The notes beneath the pieces were generated by a model, which saw nothing but the letters and a program-made list of their open reading frames with translations, made no database searches and had not been told where the DNA came from. A program made the translations under genes and the position numbers. From Paenarthrobacter ilicis (GTDB taxonomy: Bacteria > Actinomycetota > Actinomycetes > Actinomycetales > Micrococcaceae): a DNA stretch of 64,000 bases. Below are positions 15,605-24,008 of the stretch, piece by piece (the first letter of the stretch is position 1; every line of letters begins with the position of its first letter). The DNA is taken from positions 310,001-374,000 of the forward strand of contig NZ_JAFBCD010000001.1 of assembly GCF_016907545.1 (NCBI RefSeq), written 5' to 3'.

Positions 15605-16282
15605 TCAGGGGACGAACCTGTAGCCCATGCCCGGCTCCGTGATGAAGTGCCGCGGGTTGCCCGAATCGGCTTCCAGTTTCCGCCGGAGTTGGGCCATGTA
15701 CACACGGAGGTAGTTGGCTTCCGTGGCGTAGGCCGGGCCCCATACTTCGGTGAGCAGCTGCTGCTGTGTGATCAGCTTGTCAGGATTCCGGACCATGATG
15801 TCCAGGATGCTCCACTCGGTCCGCGTGAGCCGGACCTCCCGGCCGGCAGCCATGATCTTCCGCTTTGCCAGGTCCACCGTGAAGGTTGGTGTCTCCACCA
15901 CAGTGGCCTGGTCCAGGTCCTCGGCGCTCCTGCGAAGCGCGGCACGAAGGCGGGCCAGGAGCTCATCCAGGCCAAAGGGCTTGGTGATGTAATCGTCCGC
16001 GCCGGCGTCCAGGGCTTCCACTTTGTCATTGGAGCCGTGCCGGGCCGACAGGACAATGATGGGCACATCGCTCCATTCGCGGAGGCGGGTGATCACGGTT
16101 GTCCCGTCGATGTCAGGCAGGCCCAGGTCAAGGATCACCAGTTTCACGGGCCGTTGCGCAGCAGCGTGCAGGGCCGATTCGCCGTCAACCGCCGTGAACA
16201 CCGTGTAGCCGTGGCCTTTGAGGGTGATGGCCAGGGCACGCACAATGTGGGGATCGTCGTCCACCACCAGGATGTTGGTCAT
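15605..16282 (-). CDS. kdpE: Response regulator KdpE
   Basis: A 225-aa OmpR-type regulator: receiver domain with the acidic pocket 'VVDDDPH', phospho-acceptor Asp in 'LVILDLGLPDIDG' and 'GADDYITKPFG', then a winged-helix DNA-binding domain ending 'HFITEPGMGYRFVP'. The frame is open upstream to 16846, but the ATG at 16282 overlaps the kdpD stop by 4 nt and starts exactly at the receiver domain. It should activate the kdp operon in response to KdpD, probably at the direct repeats near 23576-23593. Confidence 0.93.
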   Translation of the reverse strand: MTNILVVDDDPHIVRALAITLKGHGYTVFTAVDGESALHAAAQRPVKLVILDLGLPDIDGTTVITRLREWSDVPIIVLSARHGSNDKVEALDAGADDYITKPFGLDELLARLRAALRRSAEDLDQATVVETPTFTVDLAKRKIMAAGREVRLTRTEWSILDIMVRNPDKLITQQQLLTEVWGPAYATEANYLRVYMAQLRRKLEADSGNPRHFITEPGMGYRFVP

Positions 16283-18816
16283 AGGTGCCGCAATTCCGGG
16301 AGGGCGCCCGTGGATAGCGGCAGCCGGATCACCATGGTCAACCCGCCGCCGGGTGTTTCCTCGGCCGTCAGGGTTCCGCCCATGGCCTCGGTGAATCCCT
16401 TGGCCACGGCCAGGCCCAAACCCACACCCGTGGCAGCCGGGACATCGTCCAACCGCTGGAAGGGCTGGAACATCTGCAGGACACTGGCCGCTGGAACGCC
16501 CTGGCCGTGATCGATGATCCGCAGCTCGCTGGCGGGTTGGCCGGCCAGTGTGGCGGTACTGAGACCGCCGGCGCTGCCAACAATCACAATGTCCGAGCGT
16601 GGGGCATACTTCACGGCATTCTCCACAATGTTGGCTATGACCCGTTCCAGCATGCCGGCATCCGCATCCACCTCCGGCATGTTGGCTGCCAGGTCCACCC
16701 TGACGCGGCCGGCCGGGATGCCGTGCAGGGAAGCCGGTATCACCTCGGACCAGCGGATGGGTTTGATCAAGGCATTCACGGAATCGGAGGTGATGCGGGA
16801 CATGTCCAGGAGGTTGCCCACCAGGACGTCCAGGCGGTCCGAGCATTCGTCAATGGTGGCCAGGAGTTCTTGTTCTTCCTCTTTGGTGTAACTGACCCCC
16901 GTTTGCCGAAGGCCGCCAACGGCAAGTTTGATGCCTGCCAAGGGAGTCCGGAGATCGTGGGAAACAGCCCGGAGGATGGACGTGCGCATGGTGTTGCTCT
17001 CGGCCAGGCGCACCACTTCGCGGCGGCTGGCAGCCAGTTGGCGGCGTTCAAGCTGGGCCGTGAGGTGGGAGCCGAAAGCTCCCAGCAGGCGGCGGTCGCT
17101 GGCCGGAAGCACCCTTCCGCTGAGGACCAGCCGTGTGGTGGCGTCGATCTCTTCGATGGTGTCCGTCCCGGCATCTTCGCTGGAGGCAGCGGCCGGGCCT
17201 GCCGCCGCAATCAGCCGCCACCCGCCGTCGTCCGTCAGTTCATGCAGTGCTGCCCGGCGGACCTGGAAGACATCCAGCGCCTGCTCCAACAATCCCACCA
17301 CCGTGTCCTCCGCAGCCGTGGCGCCGCGGGTCAGGTCGGCCAGGGTGGTGGCCTCGGACCGGGCCCGGGCAGCTTCTTTGGAGCGCCGGGCGGAGAGGTC
17401 CACCACCACCGCCACGGCGGAGGAGACCCCGGCGAACACCAGCAGCGCCAGGAGGTTTTGGGGGTCGTTGATGGTCAAGGTACCCAAGGGCGGAACCGAG
17501 TAGTAGTTCACCAGCGCACTGCTCCACAGGGCAGCCAGCAATGCCGGCCACAGCCCGCCAACCAGGGCAACGGCAACGGAGCCGCTGAGCTGGACCAGGA
17601 CCGCTGTAGCAATGTTGTGCGATGGGCTGGCGGCCAGCAGGAGCTGCAGGAGGACCGGCAGCACCACTGCCAGCGCAAAGCCCACCACCACCCGGATCCG
17701 GCCCAGGTCCCGGGGCCGTGGAGGCCTCCTGCCCTGGCCGCTGAGCGGGTGGGAGACCATGTGGACGTCAATATCGCCCGATTCCCGGACCACCTTGTTT
17801 CCCACGCCGCCCATGAGCCTTCCGGGCAGGGCTTTACGGCGTGAAACCCCCACCACAATCTGGGTGGCGTTGACGCTCCGGGCAAAGTCCAGCAGGGCTT
17901 TGGCGGGGTCCTCCCCGGAGACGATGTGGTAGCTGCCGCCCAGGTCCCGGATCAAGGTGCGCTGGGCTTCCAGGTCCTGCGGGGATTCCGCGGCAACGCC
18001 ATCTGCTGCACGCACGTGGACTGCCAGGAGGTCCCCGCCGTTCACCCGCTTGAGGATCCTGGCGGCCCTGCGGATCAGGACTTCACCTTCCGGCCCGCCG
18101 GTCAGCCCGATTACTATCCGTTCACGCGCCGGCCAGCTGTCCTCGATCCGGTTTTCCGCGCGGTAACGGGCCAGCCCCTCATCCACCCGGTCCGCCAACC
18201 ACAGCAACGCCAGTTCGCGCAGCGCGGTCAGGTTGCCCGTGCGGAAGTAGTTGGACAGTGCGGCGTCGATCTTGTCCGAGGCGTAGATTTTGCCGTCGCC
18301 CAGGCGTTGCCTGAGGAGCTCGGGGGAGATGTCCACCAAGTGGATCTGGTCAGCCCGCCGGACCACATCATCAGGGACGGTTTCCGCTTGCCTGACGTCC
18401 GTGATGGCGCCCACCACGTCCCCCAACGAGGCCAGGTGCTGGACGTTGACCGTGGAGAGAACGTTGATGCCCGCCTCCAGCAGTTCCTCGATGTCCTCCC
18501 AGCGCTTGCGGTTCCGGCTGCCGGGAATGTTGGTGTGGGCGTACTCATCCACCACCGCGGTGTGCGGGGCTCGCGCCAGGACGGCATCCAGGTCCATCTC
18601 TTCGAAGGCGGTGCCGCGGTACTCGACGTCCTTGGTGGGGATGACTTCCAGGCCGTCCGTGAGCGCCTTGGTATCGGCGCGGCCGTGGTGCATGGCGAAG
18701 GCCACCACCACGTCCTCGCCGCGCTCCACAAGCCGGTGGGCTTCCTTGAGCATGGCGTAGGTTTTGCCGACGCCGGGAGCCGCCCCCAGGAATATTCTTA
18801 GTGCTGCCCGCGCCAT
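16279..18816 (-). CDS. kdpD: Sensor histidine kinase KdpD
   Basis: About 845 aa with the full KdpD layout: N-terminal KdpD domain with Walker A 'GAAPGVGKTYAML', a Usp-like domain near 230-360, four closely spaced membrane helices near 375-480, a GAF-like region, the phospho-acceptor histidine in 'AVSHDLRTPLAG' near 635 and a HATPase domain with 'GVGLGLAVAKGF'. It senses K+ limitation or osmotic state and phosphorylates KdpE. An ATG 9 nt upstream (18825) is too close to the GGAAGA ribosome site; the ATG at 18816 fits better. Its stop overlaps kdpE. Confidence 0.93.
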   Translation of the reverse strand: MARAALRIFLGAAPGVGKTYAMLKEAHRLVERGEDVVVAFAMHHGRADTKALTDGLEVIPTKDVEYRGTAFEEMDLDAVLARAPHTAVVDEYAHTNIPGSRNRKRWEDIEELLEAGINVLSTVNVQHLASLGDVVGAITDVRQAETVPDDVVRRADQIHLVDISPELLRQRLGDGKIYASDKIDAALSNYFRTGNLTALRELALLWLADRVDEGLARYRAENRIEDSWPARERIVIGLTGGPEGEVLIRRAARILKRVNGGDLLAVHVRAADGVAAESPQDLEAQRTLIRDLGGSYHIVSGEDPAKALLDFARSVNATQIVVGVSRRKALPGRLMGGVGNKVVRESGDIDVHMVSHPLSGQGRRPPRPRDLGRIRVVVGFALAVVLPVLLQLLLAASPSHNIATAVLVQLSGSVAVALVGGLWPALLAALWSSALVNYYSVPPLGTLTINDPQNLLALLVFAGVSSAVAVVVDLSARRSKEAARARSEATTLADLTRGATAAEDTVVGLLEQALDVFQVRRAALHELTDDGGWRLIAAAGPAAASSEDAGTDTIEEIDATTRLVLSGRVLPASDRRLLGAFGSHLTAQLERRQLAASRREVVRLAESNTMRTSILRAVSHDLRTPLAGIKLAVGGLRQTGVSYTKEEEQELLATIDECSDRLDVLVGNLLDMSRITSDSVNALIKPIRWSEVIPASLHGIPAGRVRVDLAANMPEVDADAGMLERVIANIVENAVKYAPRSDIVIVGSAGGLSTATLAGQPASELRIIDHGQGVPAASVLQMFQPFQRLDDVPAATGVGLGLAVAKGFTEAMGGTLTAEETPGGGLTMVIRLPLSTGALPELRHL

Positions 18817-18846
18817 GAACGCCATTCTTCCACTAGTGCACCAGCC

Positions 18847-19449
18847 CTATTGGCGGTTCGTGGCCGCGGCGATGTCCAGGTTCAGCAACGTAACGTTCAC
18901 CGAGGCCTGGCCAAGGAACGCTTCCGCCCCGCCGGTGGTTTGTCGGTCCACCATGCTCTGCACATCGTCCGGACCCAAACCATGGGCCGCCGCCACCCGC
19001 GGCACTTGGATCCGGGCGTATTCCGGTGAAATGTGCGGGTCCAGGCCCGAACCGCTGGCCGTCACTGCGTCTGCGGGGACGTCCGCCACCGGCACCTTTT
19101 CGGCTGCGGCAATGGCCGCCCGCTGGGCGGAGACGGCGTCCAACAGTGAGGGATCGTTGGGGCCCAGGTTGCTGGCAGAGGACGACGCCGGGTCCCAGGT
19201 GACTGCCGACGGCCGGGCGTGGAACCACTCGGGACTTTGTACACCGGAACCGTCCGAGGATACCTGGGAAATCAGGGCCGACGCCGCTGGATTGCCGGCT
19301 TGGTCCTTGACCACTGACCCGTTGGCTTGGAACGGGGCCACCAGCTGCCCTGCACCGAAGATTGCCAGCGGATACAGGACACCCAGCACCAGGGTGGCGA
19401 AGAGGAGGAACCGTGCGGCCGTAGCCGCTTGGCGCAAATACATTTTCAT
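18847..19449 (-). CDS. kdpC: Potassium-transporting ATPase subunit KdpC
   Basis: A 200-aa protein with one N-terminal membrane helix ('FLLFATLVLGVLYPLAIFG') and an extracytoplasmic domain holding KdpC motifs 'WFHARPSA', 'SGSGLDPHISPEYA' and 'QIPRVA'-like 'IQVPRVA'. It assembles with KdpA and KdpB and assists ATP/K+ handling. AGGA lies 6 nt before the ATG. It is 8 bp after kdpB and 21 bp before kdpD. Confidence 0.94.
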   Translation of the reverse strand: MKMYLRQAATAARFLLFATLVLGVLYPLAIFGAGQLVAPFQANGSVVKDQAGNPAASALISQVSSDGSGVQSPEWFHARPSAVTWDPASSSASNLGPNDPSLLDAVSAQRAAIAAAEKVPVADVPADAVTASGSGLDPHISPEYARIQVPRVAAAHGLGPDDVQSMVDRQTTGGAEAFLGQASVNVTLLNLDIAAATNRQ

Positions 19450-19457
19450 GGGTTGTC

Positions 19458-21623
19458 CTAGCCGATGCCGGGGATGAGGGAAATGAGGAGGTCCAGCAGT
19501 TTGATGCCCAGGAACGGCGCCACCAGGCCGCCCAGCCCGTAGAGCAGCAGGTTCCTGCCCAGGGCCTGGTTGGCGGAAACCGCCCGGTACTTCACGCCCC
19601 GGAGGGCCAGCGGAACCAGTGCCAGGATGATGAGTGCGTTGAAGATCACCGCTGAAAGAATGGCCGACGCCGGGGTGGCCAGCCCCATGATGTTCAGCAT
19701 TCCCAAGCCGGGAAAGGCGGCCGTAAAGAGCGCCGGAACGATCGCAAAGTACTTGGCGACGTCGTTGGCCACGGAGAAGGTGGTCAACGCCCCGCGGGTG
19801 ATGAGCAGCTGTTTGCCGATGCCCACAATGTTGATCAGCTTGGTGGGATCGGAGTCCAGGTCCACCATGTTGGCCGCCTCCTTGGCGGCCGGCGTCCCGG
19901 AGTTCATGGCAACCCCCACGTCCGCTGCCGCCAACGCCGGGGCGTCGTTGGTGCCGTCACCGGTCATGGCCACCAAGCGTCCTTCGCCCTGTTCCTTGCG
20001 GATTACCTCCATCTTGTCTTCGGGGGTAGCTTCAGCCACAAAATCGTCAACGCCGGCTTCGGCGGCGATCGCCTTGGCCGTGACGGGGTTGTCGCCGGTG
20101 ATCATCACCGTGCGGATCCCCATCTTCCGCAGTTCCTCAAACCTGGCGCGCATCCCGGGCTTCACCACATCCGCGAGGTGCACTGTTCCCAGAACCCGGG
20201 CGGCGCCGTCGTGAGTGTGTTCGGCCACCAGCAGCGGCGTGCCGCCCTGGGCCGAGATGTCCTGCACCCGTTGCTGCACGTCGGCGGGCATGGTGCCGCC
20301 GGCTTCAGTGACGAAGCGTTCGACGGCGGCCGCGGCACCTTTGCGGATCCGGTGGCCGCCGAGGTCCAGCCCACTCATGCGGGTCAGGGCCGTGAATTCA
20401 ACAATGGCCAGGTCCGGAGTGGTTGAACTGAGCTCCTCGAGGGACTGGCCACCGCCGGTGAGGCCGGTGCCGTCGGCGGTGCCGCCGTCGGCCAGCTCCA
20501 CAATGGACCGCCCCTCCGGCGTCTCGTCCGCAAGGCTGGACAGCCGGGCCGCCGTGACGAGTTGGTCCTGCCCGATGCCGGCCGCAGGGTGGAAGCCCAC
20601 CGCGCGCCGGTTGCCGTAGGTGATGGTTCCGGTCTTGTCGAGCAGCAGGGTGGTGATGTCACCTGCCGTTTCCACTGCCCGTCCGGACGTGGCCAGGACG
20701 TTGTGCTGCACCAGGCGGTCCATGCCCGCGATGCCGATGGCCGGTACAAGGGCGCCGATGGTGGTGGGGATCAGGCAGACGAGCAACGCCACCAGGACGA
20801 TCGGAGACGGCGTGGCGCCGGCCAGGGACGCGATGGGAGCCAGGGTCATGGTGACCACCAGGAACACGATGGTCAAGGAAACCAGCAGCACGTGGAGGGC
20901 AATCTCATTAGGGGTCTTGTGCCGGACGGCCCCTTCCACCAGCTTGATCATCCGGTCAATGAACGTGGCACCCGGTTCTGCGGTGATGCGGACCAGGATC
21001 CGGTCAGACAGGACCTTGGTGCCGCCGGTGACCGATGAACGGTCCCCGCCGGACTCCCGGATCACCGGCGCCGATTCACCGGTGATGGTGGATTCATCAA
21101 CGCTGGCCAGGCCCTCGATGATCTCCCCATCGGAGGGGATCACATCACCGGCCTGGCAGATCACAACATCGTTGAGTTTCAGGTCCGTTCCCGGTATTTC
21201 CTTGGTGGAGCCGTCCTCCAGCCGCACCCGGGCCACGACGCCCTTGCGGCTGGCCCGGAGACTGTCCGCCTGCGCTTTGCCACGGCCTTCGGCAATGGCC
21301 TCGGACAGTGTTCCGAACAACACCGTCAACCAGAGCCACGCGGTGACCACAATGCCGAAAACCGCGGGCTTGAACAGGCAGATGATGGTGCAGGCCGCGG
21401 CCCCCACCAGTACAACGAACATGACGGGCGAGTGGACCATCTGGCGCGGGTGGAGCTTTGCGAAAGCCACCGGAAGGGCTGCGCGGATGGTGGCGGCGTT
21501 GAGTTTGGCCGGCGCTTTGGTGTGGTGCTTGTGGTCTCCGGGTGTTCGTGTTTCCGGAGAATTTCCGTCGGCGTAGGTCAGTGCCGACGTGTCCGCGGCT
21601 GGTGCCGAACTGGACCGGGTCAT
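19458..21623 (-). CDS. kdpB: Potassium-transporting P-type ATPase subunit KdpB
   Basis: A 721-aa P-type ATPase: actuator loop '[10 protein letters not shown]', phosphorylated Asp in '[12 protein letters not shown]', and hinge '[17 protein letters not shown]'. It hydrolyses ATP to power K+ uptake through KdpA. The N-terminus carries an extra 35-40 residue polar stretch before the first family block, a little longer than usual. The ATG overlaps the kdpA stop by 4 nt. Confidence 0.95.
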
Positions 21624-23287
21624 TGAATGAGTCCTTCTGCGAGGGGGCCCAACGCGAGGGCCGGGAAATAGCTGAGAGCCGTCATGATCACGGTGACGCT
21701 GAGGAGGAGGGAGCCGAACAGGGCGCCGTGCGTGGGCACGGTTCCTGCAGACACCGGGATTTTCCTTTGCCGGGCCAGGGAGCCGGCCAGGGCCAGGACC
21801 AGGGCTATGGGAAGGAAACGTCCCAGCAGCATGGCAACACCCAGCGCTGCGGAAAGGTACGGCCCGGAACTGGTGATGCCGCCAAACGCGGAGCCGTTGT
21901 TGTTGGCGCCGGAGGTGAAGGCGTACAGCATTTCACTGAACTGGTGGGGTCCACTGGCCGGGGCGTTGGCCATGGCCTCCGGAAGAAGCGCCGTGACGCC
22001 CGCGAACACCAGCACCAGGGTGGGGGTCACCAGGATGTACAGGGCAGCGAGTTTCATTTCGCTCGGGCCGATCTTCTTGCCCACGAACTCCGGGGTCCGC
22101 CCCACCATCAGGCCCGCGATGAACACGGCAATGATGGCCAGGACCAGCATGCCGTACAAGCCTGATCCGGTCCCTCCGGGGGCTACTTCACCGAGCATCA
22201 TGTTCAGCATGGCCACGCCCCCTGCCAGCGGAGGAAGGGAATCGTGCGCCACATTTACGGCTCCGGTGGAGGTGAGCGTGGTGGAGGCTGCGAAGATTGA
22301 GCTCGCTGCCGGCCCAAGGCGCTGCTCGAAGCCTTCGCCCAAGCCGCCTGCCGCCGTCGTCGCTGTTCCTTGTGCCGAGGCGACAGCCGCCGCCATCAAG
22401 GCCGTGGAGGTCAGCCAGAGCGCACCCATCACACCTGCCACCGTGAATCCCTGGCGCTGGTCGCCCACCATCCGTCCGTAGGTGTAGGGGAGCGCAGACG
22501 GGATGAGGAGGATCAGGAATACCTGGAAAAGGCTGGTGAAGACGTTGGGGTTCTCCAGGGGGTGGGCTGAGTTCGCATTGAAGTAGCCGCCCCCGTTGGT
22601 CCCCAGCACCTTGATGGCTTCCTGCGAAGCGACCGGCCCGCCGGGGATCACCTGGCTGACGCCTGTGGCCTGGTTGGCAACGTCCGTGGACCAGAAATTC
22701 TGTACGACGCCGCCAATCACCAAGGCGATTGCTGCCACCGCAGCGAGGGGCAGGAGGAGGCGGAAGGACGCGCGGGTGACGTCCACCCAGAAGTTGCCCA
22801 GCCGGTCCGTTCCAGCCCGCGCGATCCCGCGGATCAGGGCGATGGCCACCACGATTCCTACTGCTGCGGACAGGAAGTTCTGAACCGCCAGCAGGCACAT
22901 CTGGACGAAGATGCCCACAGTGGCCTCCGGCGCGTACGTCTGCCAGTTGGTGTTGGTCACAAAGGAGATAGCCGTGTTCATGGCAACCCAAGGATCCACG
23001 CCCGGAAGGCCGTTGCTTCCCGGGAGCACACCCTGGAGCCGCTGCAAGGCGAAGATCACCAGGATGGACACCGCGGAGAAAGCCAGAACGCTGCGCAGAT
23101 ACACAGACCAGCTCTGTTCAGTCCCGGAGTCCGCTCCGGCCAATCGATAAAACACCCGTTCAGGCTTTGAAGACCTTGAACCGGAGAACACCTTGTCCAT
23201 GTAGACGCCCAGCGGTTTGTGCACAAGAACCAGCACAACCAGCAGGACGACTATTTGGGTGATCACTGATGCGGTGCTGAAAACCAC
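21620..23287 (-). CDS. kdpA: Potassium-transporting ATPase subunit KdpA
   Basis: A 555-aa channel-like subunit with about ten membrane helices and repeated selectivity-filter elements such as 'TNTNWQTY', '[19 protein letters not shown]' and '[12 protein letters not shown]', typical of the K+ pathway of Kdp. The start codon is GTG (23287), six bases after the kdpF stop, with a GAGGG ribosome site. Coupled to kdpB by a 4-nt overlap. Confidence 0.95.
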
Positions 23288-23293
23288 CCGCCC

Positions 23294-23392
23294 TCACCAC
23301 TTTTCCGGGTTGAGCAGCACTGCCAGCAAGTAACCGATCAGGGCCAGGCCCACCAGGAACAGCCCCGCCCACATGACGGCGTCCAGCATCAT
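23294..23392 (-). CDS. kdpF: Small Kdp subunit KdpF
   Basis: A 31-32 aa single-helix membrane peptide: a short N-terminus, hydrophobic 'AGLFLVGLALIGYLLAVL' and the C-terminal 'NPEKW' typical of KdpF, which stabilises the KdpABC complex. Two adjacent ATG codons (23392 and 23389) could serve as start; the first overlaps the stop of the preceding 37-aa ORF (ATGA). The frame is open further upstream but only these starts give a KdpF-like product. Confidence 0.9.
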   Translation of the reverse strand: MMLDAVMWAGLFLVGLALIGYLLAVLLNPEKW

Positions 23393-23502
23393 TGCCCGCT
23401 CACCGGGCCTCCGCCGTCGATCATTCCGCCCAAAAGGTGGGCAACCCACATCACGATTCCCATGCTCACCACAAGAATCACCACAACAGCCACGTCGGCC
23501 AT
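23389..23502 (-). CDS. Novel 37-aa single-helix membrane peptide at head of kdp operon
   Basis: An ATG at 23502 with AAAGGA (23510-23515) 7 nt upstream opens a 37-codon frame that ends in TGA overlapping the first kdpF ATG by 4 nt, the same coupling as between the other kdp genes. The product begins 'MADVAVVVILVVSMGIVMWV', one membrane helix of about 20 residues, followed by 'AHLLGGMIDGGG' and a polar tail. I do not recognise a named family. Position, ribosome site and coupling argue that it is translated; it may be an extra Kdp accessory peptide or a leader controlling kdpF translation. Confidence 0.7.
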   Translation of the reverse strand: MADVAVVVILVVSMGIVMWVAHLLGGMIDGGGPVSGQ

Positions 23503-23515
23503 TGGAACGTCCTTT

Positions 23516-23543
23516 CATCAGCACCCCGTTGGCGGGGCTGATG
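23516..23543 (-). promoter_or_regulatory. Hairpin directly abutting the ribosome site of the kdp operon
   Basis: On the operon's mRNA strand, CATCAG and CTGATG arms (6 bp) are stacked, across a 2-nt bulge, on CCCCG/CGGGG arms (5 bp) with a 4-nt loop. The helix ends immediately before AAAGGA of the 37-aa ORF. It could modulate initiation of the whole operon. It does not look like a ydaO-type c-di-AMP riboswitch. Confidence 0.5.
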
Positions 23544-23575
23544 CCAGTCAACCCCCGTGAATGCGGCGAAAAGGC

Positions 23576-23593
23576 GTTCCTTACGGTTCCTTA
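23576..23593 (-). promoter_or_regulatory. Candidate KdpE binding site: direct repeat TAAGGAAC with 10-bp period
   Basis: On the kdp strand TAAGGAAC occurs twice with a 2-bp CG spacer (23593-23586 and 23583-23576), a one-helical-turn direct repeat as OmpR-family regulators such as KdpE bind. It lies 74 bp before the first start codon, just upstream of the expected promoter; a TTGACT element follows at 23551-23546. KdpE assignment is inference. Confidence 0.6.
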
Positions 23594-23700
23594 ATGCGGT
23601 GGACGCCAATCTTGATGATTTTTTAACGCCCGCCAGGGGGTGCCCAAAGAAGCCGGCTTGTGGGTACATTGATCCATAAGCGGCGGTATGTGGAATTCCA

Positions 23701-23718: not shown

Positions 23719-23786
23719 CGGCTGCTTGGTTTGAATCAGTTCCACAGCAGGTTGTCATTTGTTCCATATCCATGAAAGGAAATGCC

Positions 23787-24008
23787 TTGGCTGTTTCTGT
23801 TGAATTGGGCAAAGCACTCGATAAAGCCTACGAAAATGCCTCGCTGGACGAGATTCTGGCGGCACCACCGTCAGCGCTCGCAGGGGTTACCGAGAAACAC
23901 GACGAACTTCTGGCAGGAATGGGCATCAAGACGGTGCGCGATCTTGGCAGCAACAAGTACTTCGCCGTGGCAGGCGTCCTGGTGGCCCTGGCCGGCAAGA
24001 CGGGCTAG
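23787..24008 (+). CDS. Small conserved-looking cytoplasmic protein with TTG start, function unknown
   Basis: The best start is TTG at 23787, six nt after AAAGGA (23775-23780); an in-frame ATG at 23772 overlaps that site. The 73-aa product has two helical blocks, 'ELGKALDKAYENASLDEIL' and 'LLAGMGIKTVRDLGSNKYFAVAGVLVAL'. The second resembles the helix-hairpin-helix-like 'GIKTVRDL' tail found in many small actinobacterial proteins. No signal or membrane segment. It is transcribed away from kdp and ends in a strong hairpin. Function not recognised. Confidence 0.65.
   Translation: MAVSVELGKALDKAYENASLDEILAAPPSALAGVTEKHDELLAGMGIKTVRDLGSNKYFAVAGVLVALAGKTG

Follow-up and report, generated by a model that had tools for sequence, protein, structure and literature searches.

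The Kdp pump is a textbook transporter in which the small protein KdpF is thought to stabilise or tune the complex, and to our knowledge all of its solved structures are of the E. coli pump. CydX and AcrZ are further examples of short single-helix proteins that are accessory to large membrane complexes and are often missed in annotation. As for the region in front of kdpF, the accessible text of a study of Mycobacterium smegmatis places the start of the kdp transcript 120 nt before the kdpF GTG, calls the intervening stretch a long 5'-UTR, finds it transcribed under K+ limitation, and describes lacZ fusions that covered the TTG of MSMEG_5391 and the GTG of kdpF (PMC5401905). In M. tuberculosis and BCG, the accessible part of another report gives a 192-bp intergenic region before kdpF (PMC3618439). 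So far as their accessible text goes, two Streptomyces papers list only KdpFABC (PMC13011467, PMC10117811), and a Caulobacter paper notes that kdpF itself was unannotated in that organism (PMC8552747).

The window, i.e. the whole stretch of 64,000 nucleotides of Paenarthrobacter ilicis DNA that was analysed, carries on its minus strand kdpF, kdpA, kdpB, kdpC, kdpD and kdpE in this order, preceded by a small ORF, here termed kdp-sORF, which runs from 23502 to 23389 on the minus strand with an ATG start, 37 codons and a TGA stop. The features of the locus are as follows:

23510..23515, minus strand: Shine-Dalgarno-like AAAGGA, 7 nt before the kdp-sORF start, seen in the sequence and present in 27/27 loci recognised by a motif
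23389..23502, minus strand: kdp-sORF, which opens the operon and encodes 37 aa including a single hydrophobic stretch, recognised from sequence, conservation, selection and linkage
23389..23392, minus strand: ATGA overlap of the kdp-sORF stop and the kdpF start, seen in the sequence, with the same 4-nt overlap in 153/180 pairs
23294..23392, minus strand: kdpF, 32 aa (PF09604, E 6.3e-07, above the cut-off; TIGR02115, 25.4 bits against a cut-off of 26.85)
21620..23287, minus strand: kdpA (PF03814, E 2.2e-210)
19458..21623, minus strand: kdpB, named by position and by its E1-E2 ATPase and hydrolase domains
18847..19449, minus strand: kdpC (PF02669, E 4e-59)
16279..18825, minus strand: kdpD (PF02702 and histidine-kinase domains)
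15605..16279, minus strand: kdpE, probable extent (PF00072 and PF00486)

The open frame of kdpE extends to 16846, but the receiver domain begins only at residue 192 of that frame, which makes a start close to 16280 the probable one. A divergent small ORF lies at 23782-24008 on the plus strand, pointing away from kdp, and its product of about 70 residues (...LDEILAAPPSALAGVTEKHDELLAGMGIKTVRDLGSNKYFAVAGVLVALAGKTG) resembles a real protein.

The reverse complement of 23389-23502 translates to MADVAVVVILVVSMGIVMWVAHLLGGMIDGGGPVSGQ followed by the stop, and the plus strand read in the same frame over this interval gives a different translation. The minus-strand sequence bears out the earlier note, which had described an ATG with AAAGGA at 7 nt (here 23515..23510 and 23502..23500, respectively) and 37 codons with a TGA (23391..23389) overlapping the kdpF ATG (from 23392) as ATGA. 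This arrangement is more than chance, since both the AAAGGA and the NTGA overlap recur in all 27 loci picked by the N-terminal motif. A search of the window's own genome returned kdp-sORF itself as the single match. Its description as unannotated stood in that no family model was found, with no Pfam or NCBIfam model matching the window copy or two sets of 10 and 31 members, and a PDB profile search returned two chance-level matches only (E 1.2 and 1.6). It had to be relaxed in that a few copies are, or end, an annotated 'hypothetical protein' and that the Mycetohabitans copy bears a name. The latter, WP_212667346.1 (34 aa, L248, 1201-1305), is called a 'potassium ABC transporter ATPase'; it has the same place, the 4-nt overlap with kdpF and a similar sequence, and is on these grounds taken as a member of the kdp-sORF family. 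The product name is misleading because 34 residues are too short for an ABC ATPase, and no family model behind the name was found in Pfam or NCBIfam. When the Rhizobium copy served as a tblastn query at E<=10, 168 plasmid records matched, and the 60 of them that were listed mostly had no gene under the match; as this gene table of plasmids describes itself as incomplete, that is only suggestive of missing annotation. In the literature, 'kdp' was absent from the main texts of several mycobacterial or rhizobial small-protein or translation papers, and a search of mostly open-access main texts for reports of kdp-sORF found none.

Within the genus of the window, kdpA was found in 23 of 61 genomes, and in all 23 kdp-sORF adjoins it, directly before kdpF-kdpA (22 matches at E<1e-3 and one, in G055, at E 0.056). 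Overall, 33 of the 61 genomes gave a match at E<=10; no intact kdp-sORF was detected in the 38 genomes without kdpA, so that, as would be expected of a Kdp subunit, its occurrence coincides with that of kdpA (23/23 versus 0/38). One genome lacking kdpA (G035) gave a match at E<1e-3 that is interrupted by two TAG codons; its DNA (locus L023, read as the reverse complement from about base 1501 on) holds a decayed kdp-sORF and behind it a relic resembling kdpF, as though the front end of a kdp operon had outlasted the pump. The other nine matches among genomes without kdpA have E of 0.069 or more. Of the 61 genomes, 15 encode a KdpD-family protein in the absence of kdpA, and none of these 15 has a significant kdp-sORF match; the KdpD-family matches in kdpA-less genomes score lower and may be paralogues. 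Within the genus, kdp-sORF tracks kdpA, not kdpD.

Conservation of the frame in relatives, the check that had been proposed along with the ORF, was run with duplicates removed and gave a pN/pS of 0.32 for the 37-aa type (n=13) and 0.26 for the 39-aa type (n=12); kdpF in the same comparison gave 0.37 and 0.23. The kdp-sORF DNA read in the kdpF frame, on the other hand, gave 2.8 and 2.1. Hence, the kdp-sORF frame is under purifying selection and the kdpF frame through it is not. When both types were pooled pN/pS was 0.44, a value that a single one of 200 column shuffles attained. In the 37-aa type, one of the antisense frames is likewise fairly low (0.40). Divergence amounts to 12-14% of sites in kdp-sORF, as against 37-53% in the upstream stretch, the latter figure being inflated by indels as it comes from a gap-free comparison. 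Beyond the genus, the signal has the same direction and is weak in the Streptomyces-type copies: pN/pS is 0.68 in these, 0.55 in mycobacterial/nocardial-type and 0.62 in Micrococcales-type copies, while the two remaining frames gave 0.89-1.14 and 1.22-1.65.

To survey the wider distribution, we collected 246 loci with kdpA from genus, family and phylum searches, named genomes, plasmids and E. coli K-12, of which one was dropped for too little upstream sequence and 28 as duplicates, leaving 217 non-redundant loci. The 81 phylum KdpA match rows comprised 70 that gave loci or were taken, the window's own row, already counted, 7 fragments and 3 others (G437, G441, G475) that were left out, and 30 of the 36 family match rows yielded loci; loci outside Actinomycetota are the plasmid-borne ones and that of E. 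coli K-12. At least two TM-like small ORFs occur within 200 nt before kdpA in 181/217 loci, as opposed to 1/217 control stretches further upstream and 0/217 antisense (single TM-like small ORFs: 14/217 and 2/217, respectively). An exact 4-nt overlap joins 153/180 of these pairs, i.e. the 181 minus L129, a count that retains three pairings judged wrong (L104, L218, L220) and two doubtful ones (L061, L062). An HMM of 39 sequences, built in part from loci that it scored, detected kdp-sORF at >=6 bits in 178/217 loci and in none of the 217 antisense or 217 block-shuffled controls. Removal of L043 and L103, where the match is kdpF itself, and addition by eye of L038 give a corrected count of 177/217 carriers, 175 of them with kdpF, and 40/217 scored absent, among which L063 and L122 fall just below the cut and resemble carriers. 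A narrow HMM of 18 seeds, which is nearly blind to the window group, still detected 111/217 loci at >=15 bits, with none in the controls. As the set is skewed towards near relatives of the window, the carrier share is best given by source: 23/23 in the genus, 24/29 in the family, 73/76 on named contigs, 44/70 in the phylum-wide sample (26 scored absent) and 13/19 among plasmids and E. coli.

Carriers in Actinomycetota include Streptomyces, Mycobacterium, Nocardia, Microbacterium and Actinomadura. They extend into the Alphaproteobacteria and beyond, with Rhizobium, Azospirillum, Acetobacter, Paracoccus, Sphingobium, Acidithiobacillus, two Deinococcus species and Mycetohabitans. Loci with kdpA and without kdp-sORF are found in E. 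coli (K-12), Klebsiella, Lactiplantibacillus, Halobacterium and Trichormus, as well as in one clade of the window's own family and in part of the Actinomycetota. Given that E. coli and others have kdpA without it, the Kdp pump can work without kdp-sORF. A contig titled as an Acidobacteria MAG (L135) encodes a KdpA 66% identical to that of the window and shows no kdp-sORF; the contig may come from an actinobacterium and have been misbinned. In two deep-branching Actinomycetota loci (L061, L062), kdpF is preceded by another hydrophobic small ORF, which gives no match to the family and may be a far relative. From this distribution and the selection on its frame, we hold it near certain that kdp-sORF is a genuine, conserved protein-coding gene, the translation of which is predicted; where annotation was visible, almost every copy lacked a meaningful one.

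The wider family is typified by 27 residues with one helix, an aspartate at position 3 (D3), a basic C-terminus and the same place before kdpF. In 161 distinct 27-mers from 176 loci, the conserved columns are D3 (134 sequences), F14 (126), K/R22 (111), D/E25 (99) and K/R26 (137), and column 1 is a start codon (ATG, GTG or TTG) in 165/176 loci. The charges are strongly asymmetric, with means of 0.01 K/R per sequence on the N side and 1.58 on the C side, from which a topology with the N-terminus outside and the C-terminus inside is predicted. Mycobacterial-type copies at five loci (L073, L167, L177, L193, L199) have a differing C-terminus without the charged V-E-R-L type of ending. The window group shares position, start and D3 with members of the wider family. 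Together with two bridging sequences (L024, L044) it aligned to the family, the alignment of which contained two further bridges, over 27/27 columns without gaps (probability 92, E 6e-7). With all four bridges removed the probability dropped to 49 (E 1.8e-4), and the alignment then spanned just the first 20 columns, with the register kept. The 18-seed HMM scores the window copy at 1.1 bits. Sequence alone thus does not securely place the window group in the wider family; its place there rests on the bridges, the register and the position.

A six-frame search of 149 whole genomes with the wider profile gave a match at E<=0.1 in 25, but it misses carriers, the window copy among them; all 8 matches at E<1e-3 adjoin kdpA, as opposed to 1 of the 18 weaker ones (G219). 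On a FastTree phylogeny of 173 KdpA proteins from the 217 loci (152 from carriers and 21 from non-carriers), in which branch support was not weighed, the presence of kdp-sORF changes only 5 times, while 200 shuffles of the labels required at least 18 changes. Normally, kdpF intervenes between kdp-sORF and kdpA. The exception is L127, where no kdpF was recognised in between and the kdp-sORF stop overlaps the inferred kdpA start. In Deinococcus psychrotolerans the order is kdpB stop, 8 nt, kdp-sORF, GTGA overlap, kdpF, TGATG, kdpA, placing kdp-sORF inside the operon. A comparison of KdpA from carriers and non-carriers revealed no clear docking site, 1 of 211 conserved columns differing in 4 of 5 non-carrier clades.

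The earlier note had left the choice between an additional Kdp subunit and a translated leader, and conservation, linkage and position favour the former. On balance we consider it probable that the kdp-sORF product is an accessory subunit of Kdp, a role read from sequence and gene context. It would be a single-span membrane protein with its N-terminus outside and C-terminus inside by charge, translated first from the kdp mRNA and coupled to kdpF through the ATGA overlap. The peptide most likely lies next to KdpF and KdpA as an additional subunit of the pump, and would stabilise or tune the complex in the manner proposed for KdpF. A subunit is favoured over a leader because the peptide is conserved across phyla, is linked to kdpA and is co-inherited on the KdpA tree, and also because its gene is internal to the operon in D. 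psychrotolerans and directly abuts kdpA where no kdpF is recognised.

Small proteins with one membrane span that regulate kinases or transporters, such as MgrB and AcrZ, are well known, and the kdp-sORF product could likewise be a small membrane regulator encoded with the pump, one that binds KdpD, another membrane protein or the pump and so switches activity or signals the K+ state, rather than a stoichiometric subunit. The helix and the basic C-terminus are as compatible with a regulator as with a subunit, and the accessible text of a bacterial two-hybrid study reports an interaction between KdpF and KdpD for the mycobacterial proteins (PMC3618439). With regard to KdpD, however, kdp-sORF in the genus goes with kdpA and not with KdpD-family genes (possible paralogues notwithstanding). 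It also remains with kdpF-kdpA in D. psychrotolerans, and in D. radiodurans the sensor kinase is split and separately encoded, according to the accessible part of its description (PMC5716572). We accordingly regard a regulator as a rather unlikely, minority reading.

Under a different interpretation, the act of translating kdp-sORF, and not its product, would control kdpF-kdpA by attenuation or translational coupling. This would accord with its opening the operon in the window, with an ATGA overlap that would couple translation, and with the 120 nt before the M. smegmatis kdpF GTG being transcribed and read as a 5'-UTR in the accessible text (PMC5401905). The operon-opening position, however, is seen in the window but not in D. 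psychrotolerans (kdpB-sORF-kdpF-kdpA), and in L127 kdp-sORF overlaps kdpA rather than kdpF; moreover, the peptide shows residue-level conservation and purifying selection. A regulatory leader role is for these reasons unlikely, to a greater degree than a regulatory peptide, although local coupling of kdpF translation in addition is likely. More specific RNA devices were also considered. A c-di-AMP or other riboswitch was rejected as the leader has no Rfam match, the one sub-threshold match being inside kdpB; terminator or promoter logic was rejected as 23200-23620 contains no terminator-like site and the one such site, far upstream at 23853-23839, is about chance expectation; and a special RNA fold by kdp-sORF was rejected as the fold of 23280-23620 is ordinary (z -0.77). 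That kdp-sORF is an N-terminal extension of KdpF, for which the kdpF frame is indeed open upstream in the window (an 85-codon ORF), or an ORF that arose by chance because the DNA is GC-rich, is scarcely credible given the kdpF-frame pN/pS of 2.8 and 2.1 over the region and the occurrence of paired TM-like small ORFs in only 1 and 0 of the 217 control stretches.

If the kdp-sORF product is an accessory subunit, a conserved extra membrane protein in Streptomyces, mycobacterial, rhizobial and Deinococcus operons would alter the subunit list of Kdp, parts of kdp leaders that are now drawn as untranslated would be explained, and a direct test of small-helix function in a P-type ATPase would become possible. 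The misleading database product name would also be corrected. Descriptions built on E. coli omit kdp-sORF, and E. coli K-12 lacks the gene. Going one step further, we see an even chance that in many KdpA lineages other than the E. coli type the Kdp complex has five parts, among them an ancient second single-helix subunit, unrelated to KdpF and overlooked in annotation and in structural studies, and that the published '5'-UTR' or 'intergenic region' before kdpF hides kdp-sORF.

Among known proteins the closest parallel is KdpF, likewise a tiny single-span protein encoded near kdpA, with coupled translation likely. The two differ in that kdp-sORF is encoded before kdpF, whereas KdpF is encoded directly before kdpA, and in that the D3 and basic C-terminal motif of the former contrast with the Y-L / PE[RK]F pattern of the latter. 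There is no detectable similarity between them: neither PF09604 nor TIGR02115 matches the window copy or the sets of 10 and 31 members, and hhalign comparisons of the window group or the wider family with KdpF gave probabilities of 0.7, 0.6 and 0.7, in a setting where short profiles have little power. As to the M. smegmatis stretch described as a 5'-UTR or covered by the MSMEG_5391 fusion, other mycobacterial loci carry kdp-sORF at that very place, and, judging from those loci, a 27-codon ORF with an NTGA overlap would fit in the 120 nt. In size and in its single helix the predicted protein resembles CydX and AcrZ; their association with a complex has been demonstrated, whereas that of the kdp-sORF product with Kdp is a prediction.
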